Source: Ignavibacteriales bacterium
GTDB lineage: Bacteria > Bacteroidota > Ignavibacteria > UBA10030 > SZUA-254
DNA length: 64,000 nucleotides
Direction of reading: 5' to 3'
Assembly: GCA_016214905.1 (NCBI GenBank)
Contig: JACRMQ010000006.1
Coordinates: forward strand, 726,510-790,509
Made by a program: the position numbers and the translations under genes
Shown: positions 1,852-17,337 of the stretch, in pieces
Numbering within the stretch: position 1 is the stretch's first letter
Layout of the letters: the number at the start of each line of letters is the position of its first letter
The notes under the pieces: model-generated
What the model saw: the letters and a program-made list of their open reading frames with translations, nothing else
What the model was told of the DNA's origin: nothing
Databases searched by the model: none

Positions 1852-3726
1852 ATGAATTTATTGAAGAAAGTTTCGCTCGTGCTTGCCCTCTGTGCTCTCA
1901 CAGTTGGTGTGTCACTGGCGCAACAAAGCGTTGTTATTAGCGGAACCGATGGCTCAGGAAGTGGATCCGTCACAATCGGTATCCACCCGGCTGCAACGGG
2001 TGGTATCGATGCCGCATTAGGTGAGTACTCACTCCCGCCCAAAGGATACGCTTTTGATATGCGATGTTTCTCTATGCCGAGATGGGATACACTAGGCTCG
2101 GATGGTGTTCGCATTAATTACCACAAACAATATCGGATAGGTCAAACCGATACATTTAGAATCGCATTCGCACCGGAATTTAGCGGATCACCAGTTACGA
2201 TTAGCTGGCCCGCTGATATGGCGCATGTTTACGGCGGATTCTGGCGCTTACTTGATGATAACGGAGTTGAGCTTTGCGATATGACGGCACAACCGAACTA
2301 CGTTTTTCAAACGGAAAGCGATGCGTATGTGTATTTCATGATTGCTAAAGGTGACGGCCTTGGTTTTAATACAGCAACCGTATTGGCTCTTGAGCAAGCA
2401 GTAGACTCAAAAGGCAAAGGCAAAGCAGAGAAACGTAAAACTGTTGCAAGTGAAGGTGAATTCTCATTTACAAATTCAGCTGATAGCACTGATGCTCTTT
2501 ATGTTGAATTCAGCCAGGAAGTTAATATTGCAACATTAGATTACGATCACTTCGATAAGGTAACAGATTTAGATGGAAAGAAGAAGAAGTATACATTTGA
2601 ATTCACCAGCGGAACACAATTACTAGGTCCGGCTACAGTAACAGTATTTGCGGAAGGTAACAAAGGCAAGGAACTTGTTGCGAAAAAATACTGGTGGATA
2701 CCTAATGTCCCACCATTAAAATGGAAACCGACTAAATTAGGACCGGTTAATCCAAACAGTGGTTCCTCACGCTTATGGTTAAAAATGCCGAACTGGAACA
2801 ACGTTGGAGAAGAGGTTTACGGCGGTCCACCACCGGCATTCGATCCAACACTTGGTTTGATTGTCGGTCTAAATACTGTCGCATCCGATAGTACAGTAAA
2901 GGGAGCACCGCAATATAAATTTGTTAACCTGCCGAAATGGAAAGATGTCAATAAATCGTTGATCGGCAAGGGTTCTCACTTAGGCGGCGCTACTACCTGT
3001 TTCAGATTTATTGGTACAAAGGCAGTTGCTAAAGGATCAAAAGGTTTAACCGCAGATAAATCAAAGCACGAATTATTTGCTCAGATAGCCACATTGAAGT
3101 TCAATGTAGCTTCTAGTAAATATGGACACACAAATACAGGATTCGGTTCACTAGCTTATAAAGCTCAAGCAGGCGATCCATCATGGGTTGATGGTATATC
3201 AGTAGATTCAATTCTAGCAATCGCAGATAGATATTTTTCGTGTTTCACAACAACTGCGACTGGAACAGAATTGAATACCATTATTAGTCGTATCAACGGT
3301 GCATTTGCTGGTACATTTGATACAGTAAGTTTCGGCACAAAAACTGTATTGAAAAATGCAAAAATATTGATGAATGTCAGTGTTCTTTACCGAACTTCGT
3401 TTGCAACTGTTGAACCGATTACAACACCGAATTACGTAGAATCGGCAACACCGGTAGAGTTCAAATTAAATCAGAACTATCCGAACCCCTTCAATCCAAC
3501 TACGACCATATCTTTCGATCTATCAGCAGATGCGTTTGTAACGTTGAAGGTATACAACATGTTAGGACAGGAAATTGCGACACTTATCGATCGTGAGGAA
3601 TACACAGAAGGTTCCAACGATGTTGAGTTCGACGCTTCCGCGCTTGCATCAGGCGTGTACTACTATCGCCTCATCGTCAACGACGGCGAAATGCAGCAAG
3701 TCCAAAAGATGATGTTATTGAAGTAA
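1852..3726 (+). CDS. T9SS-exported protein with module B
   Basis: This 624-residue secreted protein has a clear signal peptide (MNLLKKVSLVLALCALTVG...SLAQ, residues 1-24). The N-terminal ~280 residues match no family I recognise; a Lys-rich stretch (SKGKGKAEKRK) lies near residue 190. From about residue 305 to 530 it carries a region that aligns by eye with the C-terminal parts of the genes at 17887 and 20299 (KMPNWNNVGEEV, FRFIGTKAV, ELFAQIATLKFNVASS, RINGAFAGTFDTV). I call this module B. The C-terminus is a canonical T9SS sorting domain (NQNYPNPFNPTTTISF to KMMLLK). It starts 4 nt after the preceding stop, so the two are probably co-transcribed. Function is not recognisable; a surface or extracellular role is inferred from the export signals. 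Confidence 0.88.
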   Translation: MNLLKKVSLVLALCALTVGVSLAQQSVVISGTDGSGSGSVTIGIHPAATGGIDAALGEYSLPPKGYAFDMRCFSMPRWDTLGSDGVRINYHKQYRIGQTDTFRIAFAPEFSGSPVTISWPADMAHVYGGFWRLLDDNGVELCDMTAQPNYVFQTESDAYVYFMIAKGDGLGFNTATVLALEQAVDSKGKGKAEKRKTVASEGEFSFTNSADSTDALYVEFSQEVNIATLDYDHFDKVTDLDGKKKKYTFEFTSGTQLLGPATVTVFAEGNKGKELVAKKYWWIPNVPPLKWKPTKLGPVNPNSGSSRLWLKMPNWNNVGEEVYGGPPPAFDPTLGLIVGLNTVASDSTVKGAPQYKFVNLPKWKDVNKSLIGKGSHLGGATTCFRFIGTKAVAKGSKGLTADKSKHELFAQIATLKFNVASSKYGHTNTGFGSLAYKAQAGDPSWVDGISVDSILAIADRYFSCFTTTATGTELNTIISRINGAFAGTFDTVSFGTKTVLKNAKILMNVSVLYRTSFATVEPITTPNYVESATPVEFKLNQNYPNPFNPTTTISFDLSADAFVTLKVYNMLGQEIATLIDREEYTEGSNDVEFDASALASGVYYYRLIVNDGEMQQVQKMMLLK

Positions 3727-3908: not shown

Positions 3909-4463
3909 ATGAAAAAATTCATGTTCTTATTAGTAGTATGTTTGTTTGTATCAGGTATTGCACTTGCACAACCTGCCAACCAAAACATCTATACATTTAA
4001 TGTCACCTCAGTTGCAACAGGTTTAACAGTTGAAGCTGGCGATGTAACAGTTGAAGGGCTTATGCCTGGTGTATGTTATGAAGTAGTGCCAGATCCAGCT
4101 GGTCTTATTGCAAGCGGTGGTATCACGCCGGTTACAAGTGCAGAACTTGCCGCAATCACAGCAGCAGTTATTGCAGGCGATCCATTCTCAGAAGTTATCG
4201 TTAGCTGTGCAGTTCCAACCATTCTTTTAGGCGATGGAACAACAGGTAACTTAGCTCTTACATACACAGGAACATCAGCAGAATTCCTGAACGGACTTGG
4301 TGATGGATGGTTCTTCAATCCAACAGCCGGACCGTTCGTTGGAACTCTTGATGATGGCGGCGCAGCCGAAGTATGGATTGGTTTCAATACATGCGTTCCG
4401 AAGACTATCGTAGCCGGTGGTACATGGCTAGGTGAAGGCTTACTCACAGTTCAATACAAGTAA
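3909..4463 (+). CDS. Small secreted protein, candidate fimbrial (DUF4402-like) subunit
   Basis: This 184-residue protein has a strong ribosome site (AAAGGAG, 3896-3902) and a signal peptide (MKKFMFLLVVCLFVSGIALAQ). The mature part is about 163 residues, Gly/Thr/Val-rich and probably all-beta. Three cysteines lie around residues 57, 98 and 157. The end, VAGGTWLGEGLLTVQYK, resembles the GGT...Y.V.Y ending of DUF4402-type pilin domains. It has no T9SS signal, unlike its neighbours. It sits directly upstream of a PapD-like chaperone and an usher, from which it is separated by an intrinsic terminator, as expected for a subunit made in excess. The fimbrial role is inferred from context; a plain secreted protein remains possible. 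Confidence 0.8.
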   Translation: MKKFMFLLVVCLFVSGIALAQPANQNIYTFNVTSVATGLTVEAGDVTVEGLMPGVCYEVVPDPAGLIASGGITPVTSAELAAITAAVIAGDPFSEVIVSCAVPTILLGDGTTGNLALTYTGTSAEFLNGLGDGWFFNPTAGPFVGTLDDGGAAEVWIGFNTCVPKTIVAGGTWLGEGLLTVQYK

Positions 4464-4513
4464 AAGTTCGTTCTATTAAATAATAGACAACGATTTTTGT
4501 ATTAACCTTAACG

Positions 4514-4548
4514 AAAGGTAGCTTGTATGGTTTACAAGCTACCTTTTT
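4514..4548 (+). terminator. Intrinsic terminator between candidate pilin and chaperone genes
   Basis: AAAGGTAGCTTGTA (4514-4527), 5-nt loop, TACAAGCTACCTTT (4533-4546), running into a short T-tract. A 14-bp perfect stem. Partial read-through would give high subunit and low chaperone/usher expression. Confidence 0.8.
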
Positions 4549-4584
4549 AGTATATTAACAAAGAAACTTTCGGAGCTCTAACTC

Positions 4585-5412
4585 ATGCGCAATCTAAAAT
4601 ATTTGGGTGAAATACTTCTCTTAATTATCATTTTTTGTTCGTTCATGAACGGGGCAGTTACAGTTACCCCAAAACAAATATTTTTTGATCAAACTCAGCG
4701 TATGATCCCTGTGACAGTGAGAAATCAGGACGAAGCAGAAATTGAAATTGCAGTCCGAATTGTATATAGCTATATCACGACAAATGATACGGGGAAAATT
4801 GATCTGATAGTCGACTCAGCATCGACCGAGCTTACATCTGCCGCCCAATGGATCAAGCCATACCCTACAAGATTCGTCCTGGGCGGATTGGAAAGCCAAA
4901 CTATTCGTCTTCTCGCAACCCCCCCGCCGGATCTCCCCGACGGAGAGTACTGGGCACGTATTATGGTGCGAGTGATACCGCGTCGAGTTCTTACGGATAC
5001 TACCAAGTTAAAAGTAAAAGGTGGAATGATGATGGCGCAAGAATTGGGTTTGCCTATCTATTACCGTAAAGGGAAAGTACACACCGGATTAGAAGCAAAT
5101 AATTTCACCGTTTCAAAAATGGATTCTGCATTAATCTATTCTGTAAATTTATTCCGCACAGGAAATGCTGCATTCAACGGTTCCCGAACACTCAGATTAA
5201 AAGATAGAGAGGGAAATGTAGTTCGATCCTCGATGACCACTCTCGTTGTATTTAACACGTTTGTACTAAAAGATCGATTAAAAATAAAAGATTTACCGGC
5301 CGGAAGATACACGGCCGAATTTGAAATTGTTCCAAAAAGGCGCGATATTCTAAGTAAGTACTTGCTATCGACAATGCCGATTCGATTTTCAAGTGAAGTT
5401 GAAATATTTTAA
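4585..5412 (+). CDS. PapD-like periplasmic pilus chaperone
   Basis: This 275-residue protein has an N-terminal signal peptide (hydrophobic residues 8-23). The mature protein opens with VTVTPKQIFFD, then a PapD-like first domain: a beta-strand rich in alternating residues (MIPVTVRNQDEAEIEIAVRI) and the segment PPDLPDGEYWARIMVRV, which corresponds to the dGEYR region of fimbrial chaperones. Size fits the family (~230-280). It lies 12 nt upstream of an usher gene. The expected role is to bind pilus subunits in the periplasm by donor-strand complementation and deliver them to the usher. Ribosome site GGAG at 4571-4574. Assignment rests on these motifs plus the usher neighbour. Confidence 0.78.
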   Translation: MRNLKYLGEILLLIIIFCSFMNGAVTVTPKQIFFDQTQRMIPVTVRNQDEAEIEIAVRIVYSYITTNDTGKIDLIVDSASTELTSAAQWIKPYPTRFVLGGLESQTIRLLATPPPDLPDGEYWARIMVRVIPRRVLTDTTKLKVKGGMMMAQELGLPIYYRKGKVHTGLEANNFTVSKMDSALIYSVNLFRTGNAAFNGSRTLRLKDREGNVVRSSMTTLVVFNTFVLKDRLKIKDLPAGRYTAEFEIVPKRRDILSKYLLSTMPIRFSSEVEIF

Positions 5413-5424
5413 TAGGGATTTTTT

Positions 5425-7977
5425 GTGAAGCTACTGATAGTAATAAGCTTTTACTTTGGTTTCTTATTTAATACTGCATCGTCGCAATTAGGGGTAGAAA
5501 CTCGAATTCCGGTTGAATTGCGGGTGAAAGCGATAGGTTCGCTCAATATAGAAATAATCGAAAAAGATTCGGCTATCTATTTACCGGCAACTACCGTTCT
5601 ATCTTTTCTAGGGATACAAAATGTTTATGACGCAGAAGAATTAATCATTAAAGGATTTTATAAAAATCCGGATAATCAATATACAATCGATTGTTCGGCT
5701 TTGGAGGCGAGACTCAAAAAAAATCGTACTGTAATGACAGCGAACGATTTTCTTGTAAACAACGGTGATTTATTTCTTAGAATGGCATTCCTGAATAAAT
5801 TTTTCGGATTAAGTTTTAAGTTCAATCCCAGACAATTATTGATTCAACTCCCCTTAGTTGAAGATTTACCCAAAGTAAAATATATCCAGGGTTTTAAAAG
5901 GTTAGAACGTCTAGAACGCACAAGAATAATACTCCCGCCTCCCGATGTTGAAATAGGGCATACATTCTCAGTATTCGATGGTGGACGGTTGGGATGGAAT
6001 ATCTTTAATCGATTTGCGAACACGGTCAATCCTTACCGACACTATAAATTTACGGTGGGTGGCGGACTTCTCGGCGGCGATCTCAATATGAGCGCCTTCG
6101 GAGTACAAAGGAAATATAAACCTTACAGTGAATTCCGGGCACAATGGCGTTATCCTTTTTTGGATGAGACTGCTATAAGGCAAATAATTATAGGAGACGT
6201 AGTAACATCCGGATTTTCATCACGTTTAGCGAGAGGTATTGAGATATCTAATCGTCCATTGCAGAGACGCTACATATACGGATATGAAGAATTCCAAGGA
6301 ACCTTCACACCTGATATCGATGTTCAATTAAGAAACACTCAATCCAACCTGATGTACACAAAAACCGATTCACTCGGTCGGTATAATTTTAATGTCCCGA
6401 TCTATTATGGACAAGGTAGAATTGATATACAGTCATATGATCCTTGGGGTTTACAGGAAATGAATCGATACAGGATGAATGTCCCATTTTCGCTAGTACC
6501 GCCGGGCACAGCCGAGTATTCTCTTGTTTTTGGAAGAATGAGGAGAGCCGGCCAGCGATTTACATCAGCAGCGAATGTTCAAGTAGGATTATCGACAAAT
6601 TTTACAGCTGGAATATCGATTGATTATCTCGACCTTCCACGAATTAATTCTAAGTTCTATCCGACATTCAGTTCTTTAGCGCGGATTAATTCCGGATTAT
6701 TGCTGAATTTAAGTTCAACTCCAAATGCATATTCCAGCGCTCGTATTCAGTGGCTTCTTCCATCGGATGCCGAGATAAATTTAGGAGCTACTTACTACGC
6801 ACGAAATAATTACTACAACCCGGTTGGCATGAAAACCAGATTCGATTTATCATCGACAATTCCGATTGTCGGTGGTACCGGTTTCCAACTTAACGGTAGT
6901 CAGGTAAACTACGCTCGTCACCTATATCAGAATGGTGAAATCTCGTTCTACATAAATTCAAAGTTTATTTCTCCGCGAATTACATCACGTATGTATTGGC
7001 GTGTCGATGATGGTTCGAGAACGCTGTTAAATCATATCTCCCTTTTTGATCTATCTACCACACTTCCACTGAGCGTGTTTCTTTACGGAGATATTTCTTA
7101 TAACCATATAAGAAAAGGGATTGAATCTATCGGTCTCACCATAAACAAAATGTTATTTAATTCTGTCAGGTTATCGTTCTCTCATTATCGATTTCCGATG
7201 TTTGGTTCACCGATATCGACTCTCCGCCTGGAGTATGTCTTTCCATTTTTACGTGTGAATTCGAGTGTCTCACAAAGAACGAATAATTTCAGAGAATATA
7301 CGCTTGGCGGATCGGGTGTAGTCAATATTACTCCTAAACCATTTCTTGTATCATTCGAAAATAATACCACCAATCTTGGATATGGCGGAATTCAAGTCAA
7401 TCCGTTCTTTGATGGAAATAATAACGGGATTCTTGACGAGGATGAAGAAAAATCTAAAGTAGGCCGTCTATTTTTCTCGGATATCACGCGAAGTAAACGC
7501 GTTTCGTCTATACAGATGAATTCAACACGCCTTTTGAAATTGCCTGCATACGAGGAGTATGATGTTGCGGTAGATCAGAACACACTCGAAAATCCAACAT
7601 GGGTACCTCTGAATAATGTATTCAGGGTTTATGCAGAACCGAATAAAGTACGTGCAATCGATATTCCTCTTGTCATTGGCGGTACCGTGCGTGGCTCTGT
7701 TAAAATTCAGAATAACACTATCATTGCCGAAGGTATCAGATTATTGCTGAAAGATATGAAGTCTGATCAAGGTAAAACATATTCAACAACATCGTTTTCA
7801 ACAGGTGAATTTGAGTATGCATCAATACCCCCGGGAAGATATCGACTTACTCTGGATGAGACCCAACTGAATGCTCTTGGTTTACGTGCACAACCATCAT
7901 ACATGAACATCGAAGTTAATCTAACAACCGACGGTGATCTGATTGATAATAAGAATTTTGTTTTGATATCGAAGTAA
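5425..7977 (+). CDS. Outer-membrane usher-like protein (FimD/PapC-type)
   Basis: This 850-residue protein starts at GTG (5425) with AGGGA 6 nt upstream and has a signal peptide (residues 1-20). The middle carries the usher middle-domain pattern: GDVVTSGFSSRLARGIEIS (strand plus RG), then YGYEEFQGTFTPDIDVQLR, a TDSLGRYNF turn, PIYYGQGRIDIQSYDPWG and LVPPGTAEYSLVFGRMRRAG. A long stretch of aromatic-alternating strands (about residues 370-650) follows, as expected of a beta-barrel. The C-terminal part holds a Ca-loop-like FFDGNNNGILDEDEE and a carboxypeptidase-regulatory-like beta domain (GGTVRGSVKI ... GEFEYASIPPGRYRLTL). It should be the outer-membrane pore that assembles pili from chaperone-subunit complexes. 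Sequence is far from proteobacterial ushers. The stop overlaps the next ATG by one base, suggesting translational coupling. Confidence 0.8.
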   Translation: MKLLIVISFYFGFLFNTASSQLGVETRIPVELRVKAIGSLNIEIIEKDSAIYLPATTVLSFLGIQNVYDAEELIIKGFYKNPDNQYTIDCSALEARLKKNRTVMTANDFLVNNGDLFLRMAFLNKFFGLSFKFNPRQLLIQLPLVEDLPKVKYIQGFKRLERLERTRIILPPPDVEIGHTFSVFDGGRLGWNIFNRFANTVNPYRHYKFTVGGGLLGGDLNMSAFGVQRKYKPYSEFRAQWRYPFLDETAIRQIIIGDVVTSGFSSRLARGIEISNRPLQRRYIYGYEEFQGTFTPDIDVQLRNTQSNLMYTKTDSLGRYNFNVPIYYGQGRIDIQSYDPWGLQEMNRYRMNVPFSLVPPGTAEYSLVFGRMRRAGQRFTSAANVQVGLSTNFTAGISIDYLDLPRINSKFYPTFSSLARINSGLLLNLSSTPNAYSSARIQWLLPSDAEINLGATYYARNNYYNPVGMKTRFDLSSTIPIVGGTGFQLNGSQVNYARHLYQNGEISFYINSKFISPRITSRMYWRVDDGSRTLLNHISLFDLSTTLPLSVFLYGDISYNHIRKGIESIGLTINKMLFNSVRLSFSHYRFPMFGSPISTLRLEYVFPFLRVNSSVSQRTNNFREYTLGGSGVVNITPKPFLVSFENNTTNLGYGGIQVNPFFDGNNNGILDEDEEKSKVGRLFFSDITRSKRVSSIQMNSTRLLKLPAYEEYDVAVDQNTLENPTWVPLNNVFRVYAEPNKVRAIDIPLVIGGTVRGSVKIQNNTIIAEGIRLLLKDMKSDQGKTYSTTSFSTGEFEYASIPPGRYRLTLDETQLNALGLRAQPSYMNIEVNLTTDGDLIDNKNFVLISK

Positions 7978-8030
7978 TGAATGCATTGATTAATAAAATA
8001 TTTGACAATAAAAATTGGGGGAAGATGATT

Positions 8031-10244
8031 ATGAAAAATAGAAATGATATCTTTACCTTAATATTTCTCCTTGCATTGTTTTGCTCCACGCCTCTCTTCG
8101 CTCAGGAAGAAATGGATAGCGTCGATGTGGACATGGATGATCTCGTCCAATCGAGTAATCCCTTGTTGGATGATGAGGAAGCACTTACATCTTCAGAAGT
8201 TGCAGCCGGTGCAAATTGGCATTGGCTGAATCCATACCCTCAGGGAAACACACTTTATTCGGTCGACGTATTTAGAGATACAGGAATGTGCGCGGTTGGA
8301 GATGTAGAAAGTTTCCTTAGAACGACAGATGATGGATCATCGTGGTACAAGCAGCATTCCGTAGGACAGAGTACGCGAAGATTATTCGCTATCGATGTTG
8401 TTGATGATAAATATATTTATGCTGCCGGTACAATTGGATTGGTGGTCCGATCTTCAGACGGTGGTGAATCCTGGGCACCTACATCTTTCGGTACATCTAT
8501 GCCGATCCATGCTTTAAAATTCGTGGATTCTTTGACAGGATGGGTTGTGGGTTACAATGGCACTGTTGTAAAAACAACTGACGGAGGGAATTCCTGGACC
8601 TCGCAATACACTCTAAGTTTTGTACGACTGCGGGGTATAGACTTTATCGATAAACTTCAAGGTTGGGTTGTTGGCGATTCGGGTAAAATTTTTAAAACTA
8701 CGAATGGCGGAACGACATGGGTGGCACAAAATTCGAATACAACAAAAATATTGCAATCTGTCGAATTTATTAACGCCGATTCAGGCTGGGTTGCCGGAAT
8801 CGATGGAGTTATAAGGCGGACTACCAACGGTGGATTAACATGGATAATGCAAGCCGCACCATTTGCATCGTATGAATCTATTTGTTTTGTCGACAAGGAC
8901 CATGGTTGGGCGGTAGGTTACGGAGGAATGATAATAAAAACGACAAATGGAGGATCTGCCTGGGCAAGTCAAAATTCGCCGACTACAAATTATTTATCTA
9001 GTGTACGGTTCGCTAATCCTTTAGTGGGCTGGATTGTTGGGTATGGCGGAATTATATTACGAACGAGCGATGGCGGTACGTCATGGATAAAATTAAATCG
9101 TGGAGAAACAGGATTCTTTCGTGGTGCACATTTTCCAACACGGGATATTGGCTGGGTTGTAGGTGATGGCGGTTTAATAATGAAAACCACCAATGCAGGA
9201 TTGAATTGGACTCAGCAAAATTCAGCAATGCTTATACGATTTAATGCGGTTCATTTCACAGACCATTTGAATGGTTGGGTTGTAGGAAAATCAGGCACTG
9301 TCCTTCACACAACAGATGGCGGCGCAACATGGATTGAACAAAGCACTCCTACGTTGAATACACTTTATGGTGTGCACTTCTATGATTCACAAAATGGCAT
9401 CGCAGTTGGCACGCGGGGCAAAATTATTCGTACTACAAACGGCGGCTCGTTATGGATATCCAAAAATGCCAACACATCCCGTCAACTCAATTCTATAAAA
9501 ATGGTAACGAATTTAATTGCCTGGGCTTGCGGCAGAAATGGAATTCTGGTTCAATCTTATGATGGTGGAAATGGTTGGGTGCCTCAAGAAATCAGGCCGT
9601 TACGCAACAATTTAAGCAGCATCGATTTCATTTCTCCTCAGCGCGGTGTATCCGTGGGATACAAAGGAACGATCGTTCTCACAACAGATGGCGGTGGAAC
9701 ATGGAATACTGTTGCATCGGGAACGAAACGCAATCTTCTTTCTGTAAAATTCCTGAATGAAAATAATGTATGGGCAACTGGTGAGTATGGAATTTTATTA
9801 CACTCGACTGACGGTGGATTCACCTGGGCAAAAGTAGGCAGCGGAACAGCAAATAATCTATTTAGTCTATCCTTTGCCGATTCAACCATCGGATGGATTG
9901 CCGGTAGGAACTCAACTATACTGCGCTACGATTCGTCAGGTGGATATATTTCTTCGAAAGCGAAATATCTTTCTCTGATCACTGAGCTTGGAAATTATCC
10001 GAATCCATTCAATCCCTCAACGAATATTTCGTTTACGCTTATGGAAAATGCAAATCTATCAATTAGAATTTACAACGTTTACGGACAAGAGGTGGTGTCG
10101 TTGTTTAAAAATCAAGAATTTAATACGGGCTCGCACAATATTTCTGTTGATTTTCAATCTTATGCAACCGGAATGTATTTTGTGCATATTGTATCGGAAA
10201 AGATGAAGTACCAGGTGGTCAGAAAAATATTATACATCAGGTAA
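8031..10244 (+). CDS. YCF48-type double beta-propeller protein with T9SS tail
   Basis: An in-frame ATG at 7977 overlaps the usher stop, but GGGGGAAG (8017-8024) and a signal peptide (MKNRNDIFTLIFLLALFCSTPLFAQ) point to initiation at 8031; this gives 737 residues. After an acidic spacer come 14 tandem ~43-residue repeats of the form WVVGxxGxIxKTTDGGxxW, the signature of YCF48/Hcf136-like and BNR-type propellers. Fourteen repeats fit two seven-bladed propellers. The C-terminus is a T9SS sorting domain (NYPNPFNPSTNISF ... VVRKILYIR). Plant and cyanobacterial YCF48 assists photosystem II, but here an extracellular binding or adhesive role is more likely. It sits right behind the usher and before a second protein of the same design. 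Ligand unknown. Confidence 0.85.
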   Translation: MKNRNDIFTLIFLLALFCSTPLFAQEEMDSVDVDMDDLVQSSNPLLDDEEALTSSEVAAGANWHWLNPYPQGNTLYSVDVFRDTGMCAVGDVESFLRTTDDGSSWYKQHSVGQSTRRLFAIDVVDDKYIYAAGTIGLVVRSSDGGESWAPTSFGTSMPIHALKFVDSLTGWVVGYNGTVVKTTDGGNSWTSQYTLSFVRLRGIDFIDKLQGWVVGDSGKIFKTTNGGTTWVAQNSNTTKILQSVEFINADSGWVAGIDGVIRRTTNGGLTWIMQAAPFASYESICFVDKDHGWAVGYGGMIIKTTNGGSAWASQNSPTTNYLSSVRFANPLVGWIVGYGGIILRTSDGGTSWIKLNRGETGFFRGAHFPTRDIGWVVGDGGLIMKTTNAGLNWTQQNSAMLIRFNAVHFTDHLNGWVVGKSGTVLHTTDGGATWIEQSTPTLNTLYGVHFYDSQNGIAVGTRGKIIRTTNGGSLWISKNANTSRQLNSIKMVTNLIAWACGRNGILVQSYDGGNGWVPQEIRPLRNNLSSIDFISPQRGVSVGYKGTIVLTTDGGGTWNTVASGTKRNLLSVKFLNENNVWATGEYGILLHSTDGGFTWAKVGSGTANNLFSLSFADSTIGWIAGRNSTILRYDSSGGYISSKAKYLSLITELGNYPNPFNPSTNISFTLMENANLSIRIYNVYGQEVVSLFKNQEFNTGSHNISVDFQSYATGMYFVHIVSEKMKYQVVRKILYIR

Positions 10245-10304
10245 ATAATGGAGGTAGATTTGAGCGGGCTCATATGGATATTCTCAAATAAAGAAATTTC
10301 AAAC

Positions 10305-12509
10305 ATGAAAAATGTTTTGAAGCGATTATATTCCATCTTTGTATTTCTCATCTTATCATATCCTGCGTTGCACAGTCAAGAATCTCAAGGATGGATTTGG
10401 CAAAATCCGTTTCCTCAAGGTAACGATCTTTACGATGTGGTAACCATTGATGCACGAACTGTTTACGCAGTTGGTGATGCCGGAATGCTCCTGAGCAGTA
10501 CCAATAGTGGTTCGACATGGTCAGTTAGAGGAAATCTCGAAGACATACGCACATCATTTCGGTCGCTCCAATTTAACACACAATCGAATGGATGGATTGT
10601 TGGAGAGGAAGGAAGAATATTAAACACAACGAATCAGGGAGATAGGTGGAGAGTCAGTTATATCGGGACTTCCAATACTTTAAAAGATGTGTTTTTTTTC
10701 GATAGGAATCTTGGTTGGATATCGGGTCAAAATGGATATTTAATTCGAACAACAAATAACGGCTCTTCATGGGAACGGTTAGGATTGAATCTTACTAACT
10801 CACTCAATTCAATTCAATTTGTCTCACCGCAAGTCGGTTTTTTAGCGGCAGACCGGCGTACACTTTATACAACAATGAATAGTGGCAATGATTGGCAGTT
10901 AAGCGATACGTTAGCTTCGATTTCACCCAGCGATTTTGTTGATCTGAAGTTTATCAATCAATCTTTAGGTTGGGTGTTAGGTCGCGATTTCGGAGAAATT
11001 TTTATTACATCAGACGGCGGTTCGCACTGGTCAAAAAAATCTACCGGCACCGGAGGATTAAATGCCCTTGATTTTTTCTCCCAACAGGTAGGTGTTATTG
11101 TTGGTAATAACGGTGTAATTTTAAGGAGCGCTACAGGCGGATCGACATGGAATGCAGGCGTTTTCGACAGCACGTCAGATTTCTTGAATGTTTCTGTGCT
11201 TTCTTCACCGAATAGTATTGGATGGGCTGTGGGGACAAATGGACGGATATGGAAAACCACAAATAACGGAGTCAATTGGGTAAATTATTCGGGTGGCGAT
11301 GTGAATGATTTGCGAGAACTTGCTGTGATCGATTCGAACCGCGCTTTCGCCTCGGGTGCCAATGGTGTTATCGCATTCACACGAAATGGCGGTGCCCGAT
11401 GGGATACCGTGCATACTAATTATAAAACTGTCTTAAACTCAATAGATTTTTTGGATGAACTGACTGGTGTTACCGTAGGTGATTCCGGTATCATTCTATA
11501 CACTTTAGATCGTGGATTGACTTGGACGAAACTTACAAGTCCCGTAACAAGTCGACTCATGAAAATTAGATTAAATTCTTCACTCGTAGGCATCATCGTT
11601 GGTGAAGGAGGAGTTATTCTTCGTTCAAGAAACGGCGGACTTGATTGGAATCTTATTCAGTTGCATAGCAATTATCGTCTCGCGGATGTTCAGTTCATAG
11701 ATAAAGATACAATTATCGCAGTCGGTGATTCATCCGGATTGGGAAGAATGTTCAAAAGCACAGACGCCGGAGTAACATGGGTGGTTCCGCATGCCGAACC
11801 CTATATGGCGTTATTATCTGTACAATTTATTTCTCCACAGTCAGGTTTCGCGTCGGGCCGTAACGGAACAATTCTGACGACCACAGATTATGGCACAACA
11901 TGGTACCCGAGACGCATCAACACACCATCTCTAAAAGTAGATTATCAAAGTATATTTTTCGTCGACGATAGTACCGGTTGGATTGCAGGAAAGCAAGGAA
12001 CAGTATTAAAAAGTACAAACGGCGGTAAAAATTGGTTCGCACTTGCGAGCGGGACAAACCGGGATCTCTATTCAGCAAAATTTATTTCCGATAAGGTTGG
12101 GTGGGTTATCGGCGATAGGGGAGCGATTTTAAAAACTGTCGATGGTGGCGGTAGGGTCTTAAACACAGATCCTATTGTGGCTAAAGCACCTAAAGAAATT
12201 AAACTATTACCAAATTTCCCAAATCCGTATTATCCTATGAATCATTCAGCGGGCACGTATCTACCTTTTGAATTGAACATATCAACAAGTGTGATGATCA
12301 AAATTTATGATATACTCGGAAGAAAGGTACAGGAAATCCCGCTAGGTTTTGTCGCCGCCGGGGTTTATGATAATTCACGCGGTAATCCTTACGCGCCCTC
12401 GTGGGACGGGAGAGATATGAATGGTGTTTCGGTCCCGACCGGTGTTTACATATACTCTCTTTCGACCCCCAAAACTCAGGTTGCCGGGAAATTGGTTCTA
12501 ATCAGGTGA
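10305..12509 (+). CDS. Second YCF48-type double beta-propeller protein, divergent T9SS tail
   Basis: The frame opens at ATG 10248, but the signal peptide (MKNVLKRLYSIFVFLILSYPALHSQ) begins at the ATG at 10305, which I prefer; this gives 734 residues. As in the preceding gene, the mature protein begins W.NP.PQGN.LY.V and contains 14 propeller repeats (YAVGDAGMLLSSTNSGSTW to WVIGDRGAILKTVDGGGR). It is a clear paralogue and probably arose by tandem duplication. The C-terminal sorting domain is altered: NFPNPYYP replaces NYPNPFNP, with a long insertion before the final beta hairpin (WDGRDMNGVSVPTGVYIYS ... KLVLIR). It still looks like a T9SS type A tail. It is the last gene of the row begun by the chaperone; an intrinsic terminator follows at 12614. 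Confidence 0.85.
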   Translation: MKNVLKRLYSIFVFLILSYPALHSQESQGWIWQNPFPQGNDLYDVVTIDARTVYAVGDAGMLLSSTNSGSTWSVRGNLEDIRTSFRSLQFNTQSNGWIVGEEGRILNTTNQGDRWRVSYIGTSNTLKDVFFFDRNLGWISGQNGYLIRTTNNGSSWERLGLNLTNSLNSIQFVSPQVGFLAADRRTLYTTMNSGNDWQLSDTLASISPSDFVDLKFINQSLGWVLGRDFGEIFITSDGGSHWSKKSTGTGGLNALDFFSQQVGVIVGNNGVILRSATGGSTWNAGVFDSTSDFLNVSVLSSPNSIGWAVGTNGRIWKTTNNGVNWVNYSGGDVNDLRELAVIDSNRAFASGANGVIAFTRNGGARWDTVHTNYKTVLNSIDFLDELTGVTVGDSGIILYTLDRGLTWTKLTSPVTSRLMKIRLNSSLVGIIVGEGGVILRSRNGGLDWNLIQLHSNYRLADVQFIDKDTIIAVGDSSGLGRMFKSTDAGVTWVVPHAEPYMALLSVQFISPQSGFASGRNGTILTTTDYGTTWYPRRINTPSLKVDYQSIFFVDDSTGWIAGKQGTVLKSTNGGKNWFALASGTNRDLYSAKFISDKVGWVIGDRGAILKTVDGGGRVLNTDPIVAKAPKEIKLLPNFPNPYYPMNHSAGTYLPFELNISTSVMIKIYDILGRKVQEIPLGFVAAGVYDNSRGNPYAPSWDGRDMNGVSVPTGVYIYSLSTPKTQVAGKLVLIR

Positions 12510-12737: not shown

Positions 12738-12849
12738 AAATTTTATGTTTCTCCCATATCCTTTGTGAGTTTATATTTGAATATTCATTAACAAAAATTT
12801 TAAAATCATACAATCAACAAATTCAAAAATATTTTTGGAGGAAAGGATT

Positions 12850-15800
12850 ATGAAAACTTTAAGACAAATTTTTAATTTCGCACTATTTTTAGTGCTTTTT
12901 AGTGTAGGTGCCCTTGCCCAAATTACTAACCATGTTGTGATAAGCGAAGTTTATGGTGGTGGCGGTAACAGCGGTTCAACATATAAAAACGATTATGTTG
13001 AATTGTATAATCCTACGAGTTCACCTATAACAATGACTAATTGGTCTGTGCAATACGCGTCAGCAGCGGGTGTGTTTCAAGCTGGAGCATTGTATAAAAC
13101 TATATTCTCAGGGACCATACCTGCGCATGGATTCTTTTTGGTAAAAGAGGCAGCAGGAGCTGGCGGTACCACAGACTTACCACTTGCAGATGCGACGGGC
13201 TCAATTGCCATGTCTTCTTCGAATGGGAAAGTAGCTCTTGCAAATGATACTATTTCTGTTACTGGTCCTTCAAGTACAAATATTGTCGATTTTATTGGTT
13301 ATGGTAGCACTGCATCACTTTATGAAGGATCAGGACCTACTTCATCGTTGAGTAATACAACATGTGCTGAACGTAAAGCGCAATCATCATCAACAGCAAT
13401 TACTATGGCAGCGGGCGGTTCTGATGTCACAAACGGTAATGGATGGGATTCGAATGATAATAGCGCCGATTTTGTAATTCAATCGACTCAGGTACCACAA
13501 AACTCAGCTTCCTCAGCAGAGGATCCTCCATCAGGGAATCAATCTCCAAGTATTTCGGCAATTACCCGCGGTACATTTGTGCCGGCAACAAGTTCAACAA
13601 ATACTATCTCTGCAAATGTTATTGATGATGGAACTATTACATCAGTAAAATTAGCAATCAGTGTTAATGGGGGGAATTATGATTCATCTGTTACAATGAC
13701 ATTTGTTTCAGGTTCAACTTATAGCGGAGATATTCCGGTTTCAAAACATGTAACAAACGGAGATCTTGTAAAATATTTTATAACGGCAATAGATAACCTT
13801 GGGGCATATTCGGCATCCAGCGTATACGGATATTTTGTTGGCGATTCACCAATCAGTTCGATTAAATCATATGGTGTTTCTTCTGTTGCGGGGTACGGAG
13901 CCAGAATAAACGGGACGTTAAATGTCGATGCTAATACCTTATCATCTAATTCAACGTACATTCAAGATGCAACAGGTGGATTATACTTATCCCTTACCGG
14001 AATGCCATCGTCATTAAAGGCAGGACGTAACGCCAAAGTTGAGGGTACTATCGGGTCAGCATCATCTCATGTCTATCAACTGCAAACACCAAATTTCAAT
14101 TTTGTAGATACCGCTCTTGGTACATCTACAATTACTCCGGTTACTTTAACTTTACCTCTTCCAAAAGATTCATCTTACTCGAATGAAGGTAAGCTGGTGA
14201 AGATTCTCGGCTTGACAACTGATTCAGTCGGAACTTTTGCTGAACATGGTTATAATTTCAAAGAATCTGATAATGACACAATAACGGTTTACATACAAAG
14301 TAACGGAACTGCAAATACAGTTTTAGGGAAAACAATTCCATCAATAGCAACAGATGTTACTGGTATCTTAGCATATTACTACACATATATGGAAATCAAA
14401 CCGCGCAAAGCTGAAGACTTAGGTCTTTCTACGGGCGATGGTTCTGGGACAGCTACAATTAAACCAACCAGCAGACTTGTTTCTCTAACTGCGGTTGCAG
14501 AAACACTCACCGTTACCGGTGATGGAGTTAATACGTTAGAAAGTGTCAGCATCCAGATCCCACTAACATGGGCATGGACGAATACTGCTTCGTATGTGTT
14601 AACCGGCGCGTTTGCCGGAAAGACACCGACTATCACTGGTGATGGTTCTACAACTCCGTATGTTATAACCATTGCAGGATTGCTTTTAACAGATGTTAAT
14701 CCCGGAACAATTGAAATTAAAGACCTCAACACCCCCGCTTCAAGTGGTAATACATCTTTCATTGTGAAGACTGCTCTTGCAAGCGGAACGCTCACACCAA
14801 TAGCTTCATCTCCAACGGTAAATATCACTACGAATACATTCGAAGCGATTGCGACAGGTAATTGGAACAGCGGTGCAACATGGTCGGGTGGCATTGTTCC
14901 AACGTCAACCGATGATGTTACTATGACAACAGGAAATGTTGTTGTTACAATCACTGCCGATGCGCAATGTAATAAATTGACAATGGTCGGTGTGGATACC
15001 GTCGGCGGTGTAGCCGGTCCGGTTCTGCAATTTAATTCGTCAGGTGCGTTAACATTGACTGTTAACGGTAAATTAGATTTATCTGGTACACCGGGACGAC
15101 CGAAACTGACATCCAACGGAAATACCGACGCAACATTGGTTCTGAAAGCAGGAGCGTTCACGAATGCCTCCAATACGACAGCGAATGGTGACCGCGGGTT
15201 GAATATGAACGAAGGTACTGTGAAATTCACAGGTGCATCCACAGATTCATTAAAAACCGATGCAGGTTTCCGTCTCGCGAATTTTGTCATTGGTGATGGA
15301 ACGAACGCGAAAATACTGTATTGGAATCAAACAGCGAACGCGACCATGAACATTCGAAGTTTGACAGTGAAAACCGGAAGTTCATTTATCATCGGTATGG
15401 AATCGGAAGCCAATATCAACCCTATCGGAAATTTTTCAACGCCAGGATTACCGATGCTGACGGGTGGTATCGTAATTGAGACTGGGGCGAGTTTCCTTGT
15501 GAATAATGCATTAAGCGGATCAAACACAGCTTATATCAATCTGAAAGATGGCGGTATCACTAACAATGGAACTCTCAATCTAAAGTCACCGAACGGTTCG
15601 CGTAAATATTCGGTAGCGTTTGGTGAATTAACCGAAGATCCAACCGGTTCAAAGCAAACCATTGGTGGTAGCAGCGCAGGCACGTATTCATTTGTCAAAG
15701 TTGGTGCGATCGATACAGTGATCTTAAATAATTCGATGAACGTAGATACTATGCTTGTTAATGGCGAGATAGTTGAATCGTCGGGTAAAACTGTTATTGG

Positions 15801-17337
15801 AGTTGTTAGAACAAAACGTGTGTTAACCCAGGCAGTTGCCAACACATGCGGCGGTATTGGTGTTACAGTAAACGCGCTCGATGCCACTCCCGATACGACT
15901 GTGATCTATCGTATCACAGGTACACCGCAAACAGGTGGTGGTAATGAATCGATTTTGCGGGCATTCTCTTTCAGTCCGAAAGTGAATATCGGATTGAATG
16001 CGACAATGTCGTTCTATTACGACCAAAGTGAGTTGAACGGCCAGAACGAAGCGACATTGTCATTCTGGAAATCAACCGATAACGGCACTACATGGTGGGC
16101 GCAATCTGCAACATTCGATGCAGGATTGAATAAGATCGAGGCGACAGGATTAAGTTCACTAGATTTCTATACAGCCTCTGATGCTGCACATTCAATCGGA
16201 GCTACAACAAAATCACACACGGTCACGGCCGGCTGGAATTTAATCTCTCTACCATACTATGTCGCAGATGCAAGAAAGAGTATCCTTTATCCAACAGCAC
16301 CTGGTAACGCTTTTTATTATGAAGGTACTTACAAAGTTGAAGATACACTCAAAAAAGGTTTCGGCTATTGGTTGAAATTCCCTGTTGACGCAACATTTAA
16401 TTTTTCGGGTGCAGATATCCTCAACGATACGATTATTGTAGTGGATGGCTGGAATATGATAGGTTCAATCGGCAAGAATATTTTGACTGCCAGTATTCAG
16501 CAGATTCCGACCGATATTGTAACATCAAAATATTTTGAATTTACAAATACTTATCTGATATCTGATACAATTAAACCGAGCCATGGATATTGGGTAAAAA
16601 TAAATGGTGGAGGGAAACTGGTTTTGAACAGTGGAGTTTTAGTTGGTTCTAACAATTCTTCTTCGTCGGAAAATGGTCTTGCACTGAATACATTAACCAT
16701 CACGGATCAAACCGGAAAGAAACAAACATTGTATTTCGGAAATGGTATAGATGAAAAACAACTTCAATCTCATGACGTACCACCATTAGGTCCTGAAGAA
16801 ATATTCGATATTCGATTCGCTTCGAATCGAAATATAGAAGCTGTTGATCGAGTTCAAGAATCATCAAAGGAATTTTCTATAAATCTGCAAGGAGTGCAAT
16901 ATCCTATTACGATTGAATGGGATATTAAACAAGATATTGGAAATTGCTATCTGCGGACTGAAAGTAAAAATCAATTGATAACCGGTGCTAATAGCATTAT
17001 ATTCAATGAGCCGGTAACTTCACTGAGGCTCGGATATAATTCTCAAAAAGAATTACCGAAGAATTTTACACTTGGCAAATCTTATCCAAATCCGTTTAAC
17101 CCTTCAACAAAATTTCAGATCGAAATTCCTTATACAACCGTTGTGAATATTGTAGTCTACGATGCGATCGGGAGAAAAATTAAAACACTTTACCATGGTG
17201 AAAAAGAAGCAGGAATTTCCGTCCTCGAATGGAACGGATTATCCGATGATAATCGCCCGGCTACTAGTGGTATATATTTTATCAAAATGGCTGCAGATAA
17301 ATTTAATGCGATCACTAAAGCGGTATTATTAAAATAA
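12850..17337 (+). CDS. Giant T9SS-exported protein with lamin-tail domain and module A
   Basis: A TTG-initiated frame exists from 12835, but GGAGGAAAGG (12837-12846) is a strong ribosome site for ATG 12850, which begins a clean signal peptide (MKTLRQIFNFALFLVLFSVGALAQ); length is then 1495. Residues ~25-190 form a lamin-tail (LTD) domain (HVVISEVYGGGGNSGS, DYVELYNPTSSPI). Next come an Ig-like segment (~230-330) and an OB-fold-like segment resembling the nucleic-acid-binding domains often paired with LTDs (~340-530). A long repetitive beta region follows. From ~1120 comes module A with its two GWN...GYW repeats and PPLGPEEIFDIRF, and finally the T9SS tail (SYPNPFNPSTKFQI ... KAVLLK). LTD proteins of this kind are often linked to extracellular nucleases, but no nuclease domain is visible. 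It is monocistronic between its own promoter and a hairpin at 17350. Confidence 0.87.
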   Translation: MKTLRQIFNFALFLVLFSVGALAQITNHVVISEVYGGGGNSGSTYKNDYVELYNPTSSPITMTNWSVQYASAAGVFQAGALYKTIFSGTIPAHGFFLVKEAAGAGGTTDLPLADATGSIAMSSSNGKVALANDTISVTGPSSTNIVDFIGYGSTASLYEGSGPTSSLSNTTCAERKAQSSSTAITMAAGGSDVTNGNGWDSNDNSADFVIQSTQVPQNSASSAEDPPSGNQSPSISAITRGTFVPATSSTNTISANVIDDGTITSVKLAISVNGGNYDSSVTMTFVSGSTYSGDIPVSKHVTNGDLVKYFITAIDNLGAYSASSVYGYFVGDSPISSIKSYGVSSVAGYGARINGTLNVDANTLSSNSTYIQDATGGLYLSLTGMPSSLKAGRNAKVEGTIGSASSHVYQLQTPNFNFVDTALGTSTITPVTLTLPLPKDSSYSNEGKLVKILGLTTDSVGTFAEHGYNFKESDNDTITVYIQSNGTANTVLGKTIPSIATDVTGILAYYYTYMEIKPRKAEDLGLSTGDGSGTATIKPTSRLVSLTAVAETLTVTGDGVNTLESVSIQIPLTWAWTNTASYVLTGAFAGKTPTITGDGSTTPYVITIAGLLLTDVNPGTIEIKDLNTPASSGNTSFIVKTALASGTLTPIASSPTVNITTNTFEAIATGNWNSGATWSGGIVPTSTDDVTMTTGNVVVTITADAQCNKLTMVGVDTVGGVAGPVLQFNSSGALTLTVNGKLDLSGTPGRPKLTSNGNTDATLVLKAGAFTNASNTTANGDRGLNMNEGTVKFTGASTDSLKTDAGFRLANFVIGDGTNAKILYWNQTANATMNIRSLTVKTGSSFIIGMESEANINPIGNFSTPGLPMLTGGIVIETGASFLVNNALSGSNTAYINLKDGGITNNGTLNLKSPNGSRKYSVAFGELTEDPTGSKQTIGGSSAGTYSFVKVGAIDTVILNNSMNVDTMLVNGEIVESSGKTVIGVVRTKRVLTQAVANTCGGIGVTVNALDATPDTTVIYRITGTPQTGGGNESILRAFSFSPKVNIGLNATMSFYYDQSELNGQNEATLSFWKSTDNGTTWWAQSATFDAGLNKIEATGLSSLDFYTASDAAHSIGATTKSHTVTAGWNLISLPYYVADARKSILYPTAPGNAFYYEGTYKVEDTLKKGFGYWLKFPVDATFNFSGADILNDTIIVVDGWNMIGSIGKNILTASIQQIPTDIVTSKYFEFTNTYLISDTIKPSHGYWVKINGGGKLVLNSGVLVGSNNSSSSENGLALNTLTITDQTGKKQTLYFGNGIDEKQLQSHDVPPLGPEEIFDIRFASNRNIEAVDRVQESSKEFSINLQGVQYPITIEWDIKQDIGNCYLRTESKNQLITGANSIIFNEPVTSLRLGYNSQKELPKNFTLGKSYPNPFNPSTKFQIEIPYTTVVNIVVYDAIGRKIKTLYHGEKEAGISVLEWNGLSDDNRPATSGIYFIKMAADKFNAITKAVLLK

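Follow-up and report, generated by a model that had tools for sequence, protein, structure and literature searches.

A single-pilin chaperone–usher gene row joined to T9SS-tailed YCF48 propeller genes suggests a two-route surface organelle in Ignavibacteria

Introduction

Can two unrelated outer-membrane export machines contribute to one appendage? A locus in the genome of an Ignavibacteriales bacterium makes this question testable. In the stretch of 64,000 nucleotides analyzed here (the window), a chaperone–usher set is joined to genes of T9SS-tailed propeller proteins, and a preliminary description made from the sequence alone regarded two outer-membrane export routes in one gene row as unusual. 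We asked what the encoded proteins are, whether the row is conserved, and whether the two parts are likely to work together. The host genome is 3.3 Mb long and 99.6% complete; its named relatives are metagenome bins of Ignavibacteriae and Chlorobiaceae.

Results

Organization of the locus

Five genes on one strand, at 3909–12509, encode a probable pilin, a chaperone, an usher, and two propellers, denoted here p1 and p2. All five open reading frames (ORFs) were found where the preliminary description had placed them, and the identities that it had assigned to the products (pilin, PapD-like chaperone, usher, two T9SS-tailed YCF48 propellers) are supported by the analyses below. The whole block comprises approximately eight genes, five of them T9SS-tailed, of which three flank the pilin-to-p2 row:

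3–1847, + strand: T9SS-tailed surface protein with a nidogen-like trace, 5' end beyond the window edge (FlgD_ig E = 1.1e-9, Por_Secre_tail E = 2.5e-8)
1852–3726, + strand: T9SS-tailed secreted protein directly 5' of the pilin gene (Por_Secre_tail E = 3.8e-10)
3909–4463, + strand: probable single pilin, 184 aa, with a signal peptide, a free N-terminal extension, and a C-terminal strand ending in ...VQYK
4513–4547, + strand: terminator- or attenuator-like hairpin with a T tail in the pilin–chaperone gap, 15-bp stem
4585–5412, + strand: predicted periplasmic pilus chaperone, non-classical, 275 aa (weak PapD_N match, hhalign, conserved residues)
5425–7977, + strand: predicted outer-membrane usher, 850 aa (AlphaFold2 model, Foldseek, VIA-align, hhalign)
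~8025–10244, + strand: propeller p1, 14 YCF48 repeats and a T9SS type A tail; the ORF opens at 7977 (PSII_BNR E = 3.6e-66, Por_Secre_tail E = 8e-13)
~10305–12509, + strand: propeller p2, 14 YCF48 repeats and a FlgD-like T9SS tail; the ORF opens at 10248 (PSII_BNR E = 2.4e-56)
12835–17337, + strand: large T9SS-tailed protein with a lamin-tail domain, the next gene 3' of p2 (LTD E = 1.4e-13, FlgD_ig E = 8.5e-8)

If p1 and p2 are taken to start at their signal peptides (8025 and 10305), which are likely the real starts, the gaps along the row are 121, 12, 47, and 60 nt. The 12-nt gap reported earlier is that between the chaperone and usher genes, and the 1-nt overlap is formed by the usher stop and the start of the 7977 ORF; the small gaps around the propeller genes hold for the longest ORFs (3 nt between p1 and p2), whereas the signal-peptide starts yield 47 and 60 nt. 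The claim that the row runs without a break fails at the pilin–chaperone junction, as the 121-nt gap there contains the terminator-like hairpin: the folding energy of this gap is -30.6 kcal/mol (z = -4.0), and T residues come after its 15-bp hairpin. The hairpin, revealed by folding, was not listed by an automatic terminator scan, probably because its stem uses up the first T residues. An almost identical hairpin stem is found in two related loci, L025 and L027, and among the relatives measured the pilin–chaperone gap is 95–250 nt long in eight but only 53 nt long in L032.

The flanking genes are shared as well. Among relatives with enough contig, a T9SS-tailed homolog of 1852–3726 lies 5' of the pilin gene in all, and homologs of 3–1847 occupy the matching upstream slot in L027, L030, L032, L033, L036, L040, and L041; homologs of 12835–17337 stand 3' of p2 in most relatives, their position being largely conserved.

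Usher

The Pfam Usher model (PF00577) has no match in the host genome, picks up a single one of the 14 members of the family (E = 0.063), and does not exceed the cut-off in any of 296 genomes of the phylum, while the Pfam matches of the usher itself go no further than a carboxypeptidase-regulatory-like domain close to the C-terminus. Structure modeling gave a different picture. The AlphaFold2 model, built from 14 relatives (pLDDT 83.6), consists of an N-terminal domain (residues ~25–142), a barrel (~184–636) of 24 strands, six before and 18 after a plug (~299–353), and periplasmic C-terminal domains folded as sandwiches and extending to residue 850; thus both the plug and the barrel, on which the preliminary description had made the usher assignment depend, are present in the model. 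In the Foldseek comparison with the PDB the top 18 matches are all FimD/PapC (E down to 3.5e-28), and in VIA-align the top 15 are again FimD/PapC, with Z = 22.9 over 599 residues vs. 17.4 for the best non-usher barrel. The hhalign comparison with seven ushers of E. coli K-12 gave 98.3% over 500 columns, the negative controls (usher with propellers, chaperone with pilins, pilin with chaperones) remaining below 6%; identity to FimD/PapC is about 12–14%. By its modeled fold and by hhalign, the predicted product of 5425–7977 is an usher, not a scored member of PF00577, and the blank Pfam result reflects a limit of the model rather than an absence of ushers.

No pilus relatives were retrieved in a PDB sequence search with the usher, chaperone, and pilin profiles or with one distant chaperone, and EcpC alone yielded no match; a search of the genome contigs with the single usher retrieved nothing, whereas the usher alignment retrieved the relatives. 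Matches from Clostridiaceae and Sulfotelmatobacter, the last two listed, were discarded, as only the C-terminal carboxypeptidase-regulatory-like domain was aligned.

Chaperone

The window chaperone matches PapD_N below the cut-off (E = 0.0037), this domain being matched in seven out of 17 relatives, and hhalign comparison with nine E. coli chaperones gave 96.1% (E = 2.9e-9). According to Pakharukova and colleagues (PMC4654587), one proline is invariant across the chaperone superfamily, and an arginine in strand F of domain 1 (CsuC/EcpB Arg89) marks archaic and alternative chaperones. Here, Pro94 is invariant (28 out of 28 sequences) and aligns with the EcpB/CsuC proline, and Arg125 aligns with EcpB Arg89 (Arg in 25 and Lys in two out of 28 sequences), the EcpB alignment itself reaching only 65%. 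The classical basic pair of the Arg8/Lys112 type is absent, as Gln31 and Pro157 occupy its positions, and none of the 28 sequences has a basic residue at position 157. In archaic and alternative chaperones an Arg/Tyr pair of domain 2 completes the anchor; in domain 2 of the window family, whose register is unreliable, Arg191 is well conserved, and a Tyr is seen further on in several orthologs. Taking Pro94, the missing basic pair, and the PapD-like first domain into account, we regard the protein as a predicted true pilus chaperone of a non-classical type. Its possible membership in the archaic/alternative sub-class is a lead, not proof, being based on the EcpB alignment and the published description (PMC4654587).

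A second, more distant chaperone gene was observed in two genomes (G005:C124:40959-41768 and G006:C45:3057-3875), with no second usher detected in the same genome.

Pilin

Profile comparison of the 184-aa protein with E. coli pilins yielded a weak match (24.9%), and hence a structure model was made. The AlphaFold2 model (pLDDT 84.5) has a loose coil as its N-terminal extension. In the Foldseek search all matches ranked 1–20 are chaperone–usher pilins, with the best E of only 0.009 and the rest weaker; VIA-align places CsuA/B and CsuE at the top with Z = 6.5, below the level able to stand alone. Weak as each score is when taken alone, the uniform list of matches, the adjacency of the chaperone and usher genes, and the C-terminal strand ending in Tyr–Lys make it probable that the protein is a chaperone–usher pilin.

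The window pilin matches neither DUF4402 (PF14352) nor any other family, and DUF4402 matches were found in 12 out of 22 aligned pilin homologs at E up to 0.1, several of them over the cut-off. In Pfam the function of DUF4402 is given as unknown; since DUF4402 proteins occupy the pilin position upstream of chaperones in loci L094–L109, this is probably a family of chaperone–usher pilins.

Propellers

Both p1 and p2 are about 740 aa long and contain 13 clear YCF48/Asp-box repeats spaced by 40–45 aa plus one degenerate copy, in agreement with the 14 repeats counted previously; with this number, each protein is expected to fold as two seven-bladed propellers. The T9SS tails had been claimed for both proteins. 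That of p1 is well matched, whereas the tail of the window p2 stays below the cut-off (18.5 bits vs. 23 for TIGR04183), with 12 out of 14 p2 orthologs matching. SprA and several PorV-like proteins are encoded in the host genome, and by its tail, its signal peptide, and this genomic T9SS, p1 qualifies as a predicted T9SS substrate. Many YCF48-repeat candidates are present in the same genome, some of them in T9SS-tailed proteins.

Conservation and co-inheritance

Among 40 relatives, the usher is present in all 14 members of the host family (f1) and in four out of five members of a second family (f2). The order pilin–chaperone–usher–p1(–p2) is common to both families, and hence the gene-order conservation on which the earlier reading was to be judged is indeed observed. 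In all 17 contiguous loci, the window included, p1 lies directly 3' of the usher gene, and in 15 of them p2 comes next, being lost in G004 and G014. Following p1 in loci L034 and L035, we observed in place of p2 a gene for a 231-aa secreted protein, and in L034 then a TonB-dependent receptor gene.

Of the 98 genomes examined from the order, 18 have p1 orthologs (>800 bits), and each of these belongs to f1 or f2, the two families carrying the propeller-linked usher clade; the lowest-scoring ortholog, at 807 bits, is set apart from the next match, at 677 bits. The propeller-linked ushers form one side of a branch with support 100/100, and p1 and p2 are separate clades with the same support (100/100). 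The usher tree and the p1 tree alike place f2 with the f1 members L032, L034, and L035, as expected if the usher and p1 genes moved as a unit; the nesting of the f2 sequences within f1 hints at lateral transfer of the usher–p1 block. For a possible independent gain of p2 in f2, the AU test gave p = 0.043. Judging from gene order and trees, the chaperone–usher row and the propellers are apparently inherited as one block, and in this lineage only. Thus, the unusual pairing of two export routes stands as a conserved and co-inherited arrangement.

Related ushers without propellers

Long matches to the usher family occur in about 66 out of 294 genomes of the class, and full-length copies are found elsewhere in the phylum. 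In the unlinked loci that we inspected (20 in the class and six outside it), no propeller gene directly follows the usher gene. A chaperone gene is directly upstream of the usher gene in 19 out of 20 distant clusters of the class. Since ushers of this family are frequent in the class even where propellers are absent, it is the propeller linkage, and not the pilus, that is distinctive of the locus.

Linked and unlinked clusters differ in two more respects. Most unlinked clusters have two to four upstream DUF4402-like pilin genes, whereas every propeller-linked cluster with upstream sequence has exactly one pilin gene, and this contrast may stem from a single evolutionary event, as the linked clusters form one clade. 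The linked ushers stop at about 850–880 aa and have no peptidoglycan-binding extension, while all 12 longer unlinked ushers checked (L094, L095, L097–L103, L105, L108, L038) end on the periplasmic side in domains that bind peptidoglycan: nine carry SPOR, one of them together with LysM; two carry OmpA; and L038 carries a TPR stretch with a below-cut-off SPOR match. These domains suggest that the longer unlinked ushers are anchored to the cell wall. Six further unlinked ushers (L090–L093, L104, L109) have neither an extension nor a propeller.

Full clusters of one to four pilin genes with chaperone genes and usher genes of this family were also observed in other classes of the phylum (L140–L145), notably in family f43; at these loci Pfam Usher did not exceed the cut-off.

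Discussion

Proposed mechanism and alternatives

We consider it somewhat probable that this operon-like block encodes a non-classical Bacteroidota chaperone–usher fiber with a single pilin, coupled to T9SS-exported propellers in what would be a physical partnership. Such a coupling suggests a previously undescribed surface organelle assembled via two routes.

Judging from folds and residues, the chaperone would bind the pilin in the periplasm and use its own G1 strand to complete the unfinished Ig fold of the pilin. The usher, given its modeled architecture, would take the chaperone–pilin complexes and thread a homopolymeric fiber, in which the N-terminal extension of one pilin would complete the next one by donor strand exchange. 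The hairpin following the pilin gene may render the pilin more abundant than the machinery. Meanwhile, p1, p2, and the three flanking proteins would cross the outer membrane via the T9SS and be fixed at the surface, where p1 and usually p2 would act with the fiber or the usher, most likely in an adhesive, capping, or anchoring role, standing in for the extra or adhesin-like pilins of the sister clusters. This role is proposed because of the strict co-inheritance of p1 with the usher and the single pilin of the linked clusters. The preliminary description had likewise suggested that the propellers may cap the pilus, and alternatively that they may decorate it or compete with it. Against a partnership, p2 is dispensable, given its loss in G004 and G014, and the propellers may be generic surface proteins, given the many YCF48 candidates in the genome. 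Further points against the preferred reading are the individually weak Foldseek scores of the pilin, the single event that may underlie the single-pilin correlation, and the sub-cut-off tail of the window p2.

The same loss of p2 is compatible with shared regulation as the only bond, i.e., with the fiber and the T9SS proteins being separate attachment tools that share one transcription unit since both are required simultaneously, and that make no contact, and the three additional T9SS-tailed proteins flanking the block, reminiscent of a surface-attachment island, fit this explanation too. It is a serious rival, even if we hold it to be rather less than probable, since p1 always lies next to the usher gene, its orthologs are found nowhere else in the order, and the trees agree, a linkage tighter than co-regulation normally requires. 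These observations could also be explained if p1 were an accessory of the usher. Displayed where the barrel opens to the cell exterior, it would serve as a gate, plug, or anchor for the usher or the fiber base, in place of the peptidoglycan anchor found at the C-terminus of many unlinked ushers. Loci that have lost p2 still keep p1 after the usher gene, the p1 tree agrees with that of the usher, and it is the longer unlinked ushers that end in SPOR, OmpA, or LysM domains, the linked ones stopping at about 850–880 aa. The unlinked ushers with neither extension nor propeller (L090–L093, L104, L109) show, however, that an anchor is not obligatory, and we deem this explanation unlikely.

The barrel could also descend from an usher and have a non-pilus use, e.g., in producing a secreted coat or in exporting the 184-aa protein in non-fibrous form. 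The Pfam usher model is blind to this barrel, and single-subunit systems of the Caf1 type can form capsule-like coats instead of rods, both of which speak for such a use. Set against this are the complete usher architecture, the dedicated chaperone, and the pilin-like subunit with its free N-terminal extension, which leave a non-pilus barrel quite improbable. We retain the fiber with T9SS-exported partners as the preferred reading.

If so, the locus marks a single lineage whose usher has acquired a T9SS product as a fixed partner. The analysis also shows that chaperone–usher systems are common in Bacteroidota, yet hidden from the standard usher model.

Comparison with known systems

Among the closest parallels are the archaic and alternative pathways, represented by Csu of Acinetobacter baumannii and Ecp of E. 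coli (PMC4654587), which share with the window system the pilin–chaperone–usher set and the usher fold. The window chaperone likewise has the proline that is invariant in the superfamily, has an arginine where EcpB has Arg89, and is devoid of the classical basic pair, and the window pilin model is closest to CsuA/B. Unlike Csu and Ecp, the window system is from Bacteroidota, its usher falls below the Pfam cut-off, its pilins are DUF4402-like, and T9SS propellers are joined to it; in the published survey, the archaic systems range over Proteobacteria, Cyanobacteria, and Deinococcus-Thermus, with Bacteroidota left out (PMC4654587). Type 1 and P pili (FimC–FimD, PapD–PapC) resemble the window system in the order of the usher domains, the barrel with a plug, and the alignable N-terminal domain of the chaperone, but identity of the usher to theirs is about 12–14%, the Arg/Lys anchor is missing from the window chaperone, and the linked clusters have no separate two-domain adhesin pilin.

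A precedent for a T9SS substrate joining a fimbria of another type is Mfa5 of Porphyromonas gingivalis, which is encoded in a fimbrial cluster and reported to be built into the fimbria (PMC8313007, PMC7835359). The likeness of the Mfa1 type V fimbriae to the window system is limited to the presence of a gene for a T9SS-exported protein in the fimbrial cluster: they are made from lipoprotein precursors with no usher, and Mfa5 has a von Willebrand domain and is not a propeller. The components of the window system are of known kinds, and what is new, as far as tested, is the lineage, the pilin and usher variants, and the coupling to the T9SS. Among papers outside subscription, our search found none joining chaperone–usher systems with Ignavibacteria and the T9SS and none naming DUF4402.

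As regards the propellers, p1 and p2 share the PSII_BNR repeat family with the YCF48 photosystem II (PSII) assembly factor and with other T9SS-tailed YCF48 proteins, but differ from these in that each forms a separate clade bound to the usher locus.

One more protein with a YCF48 propeller region, about 1450 aa long, is encoded away from the usher gene (G000:C6:412025-413716) and, with its f1 counterparts, is conserved in the family.
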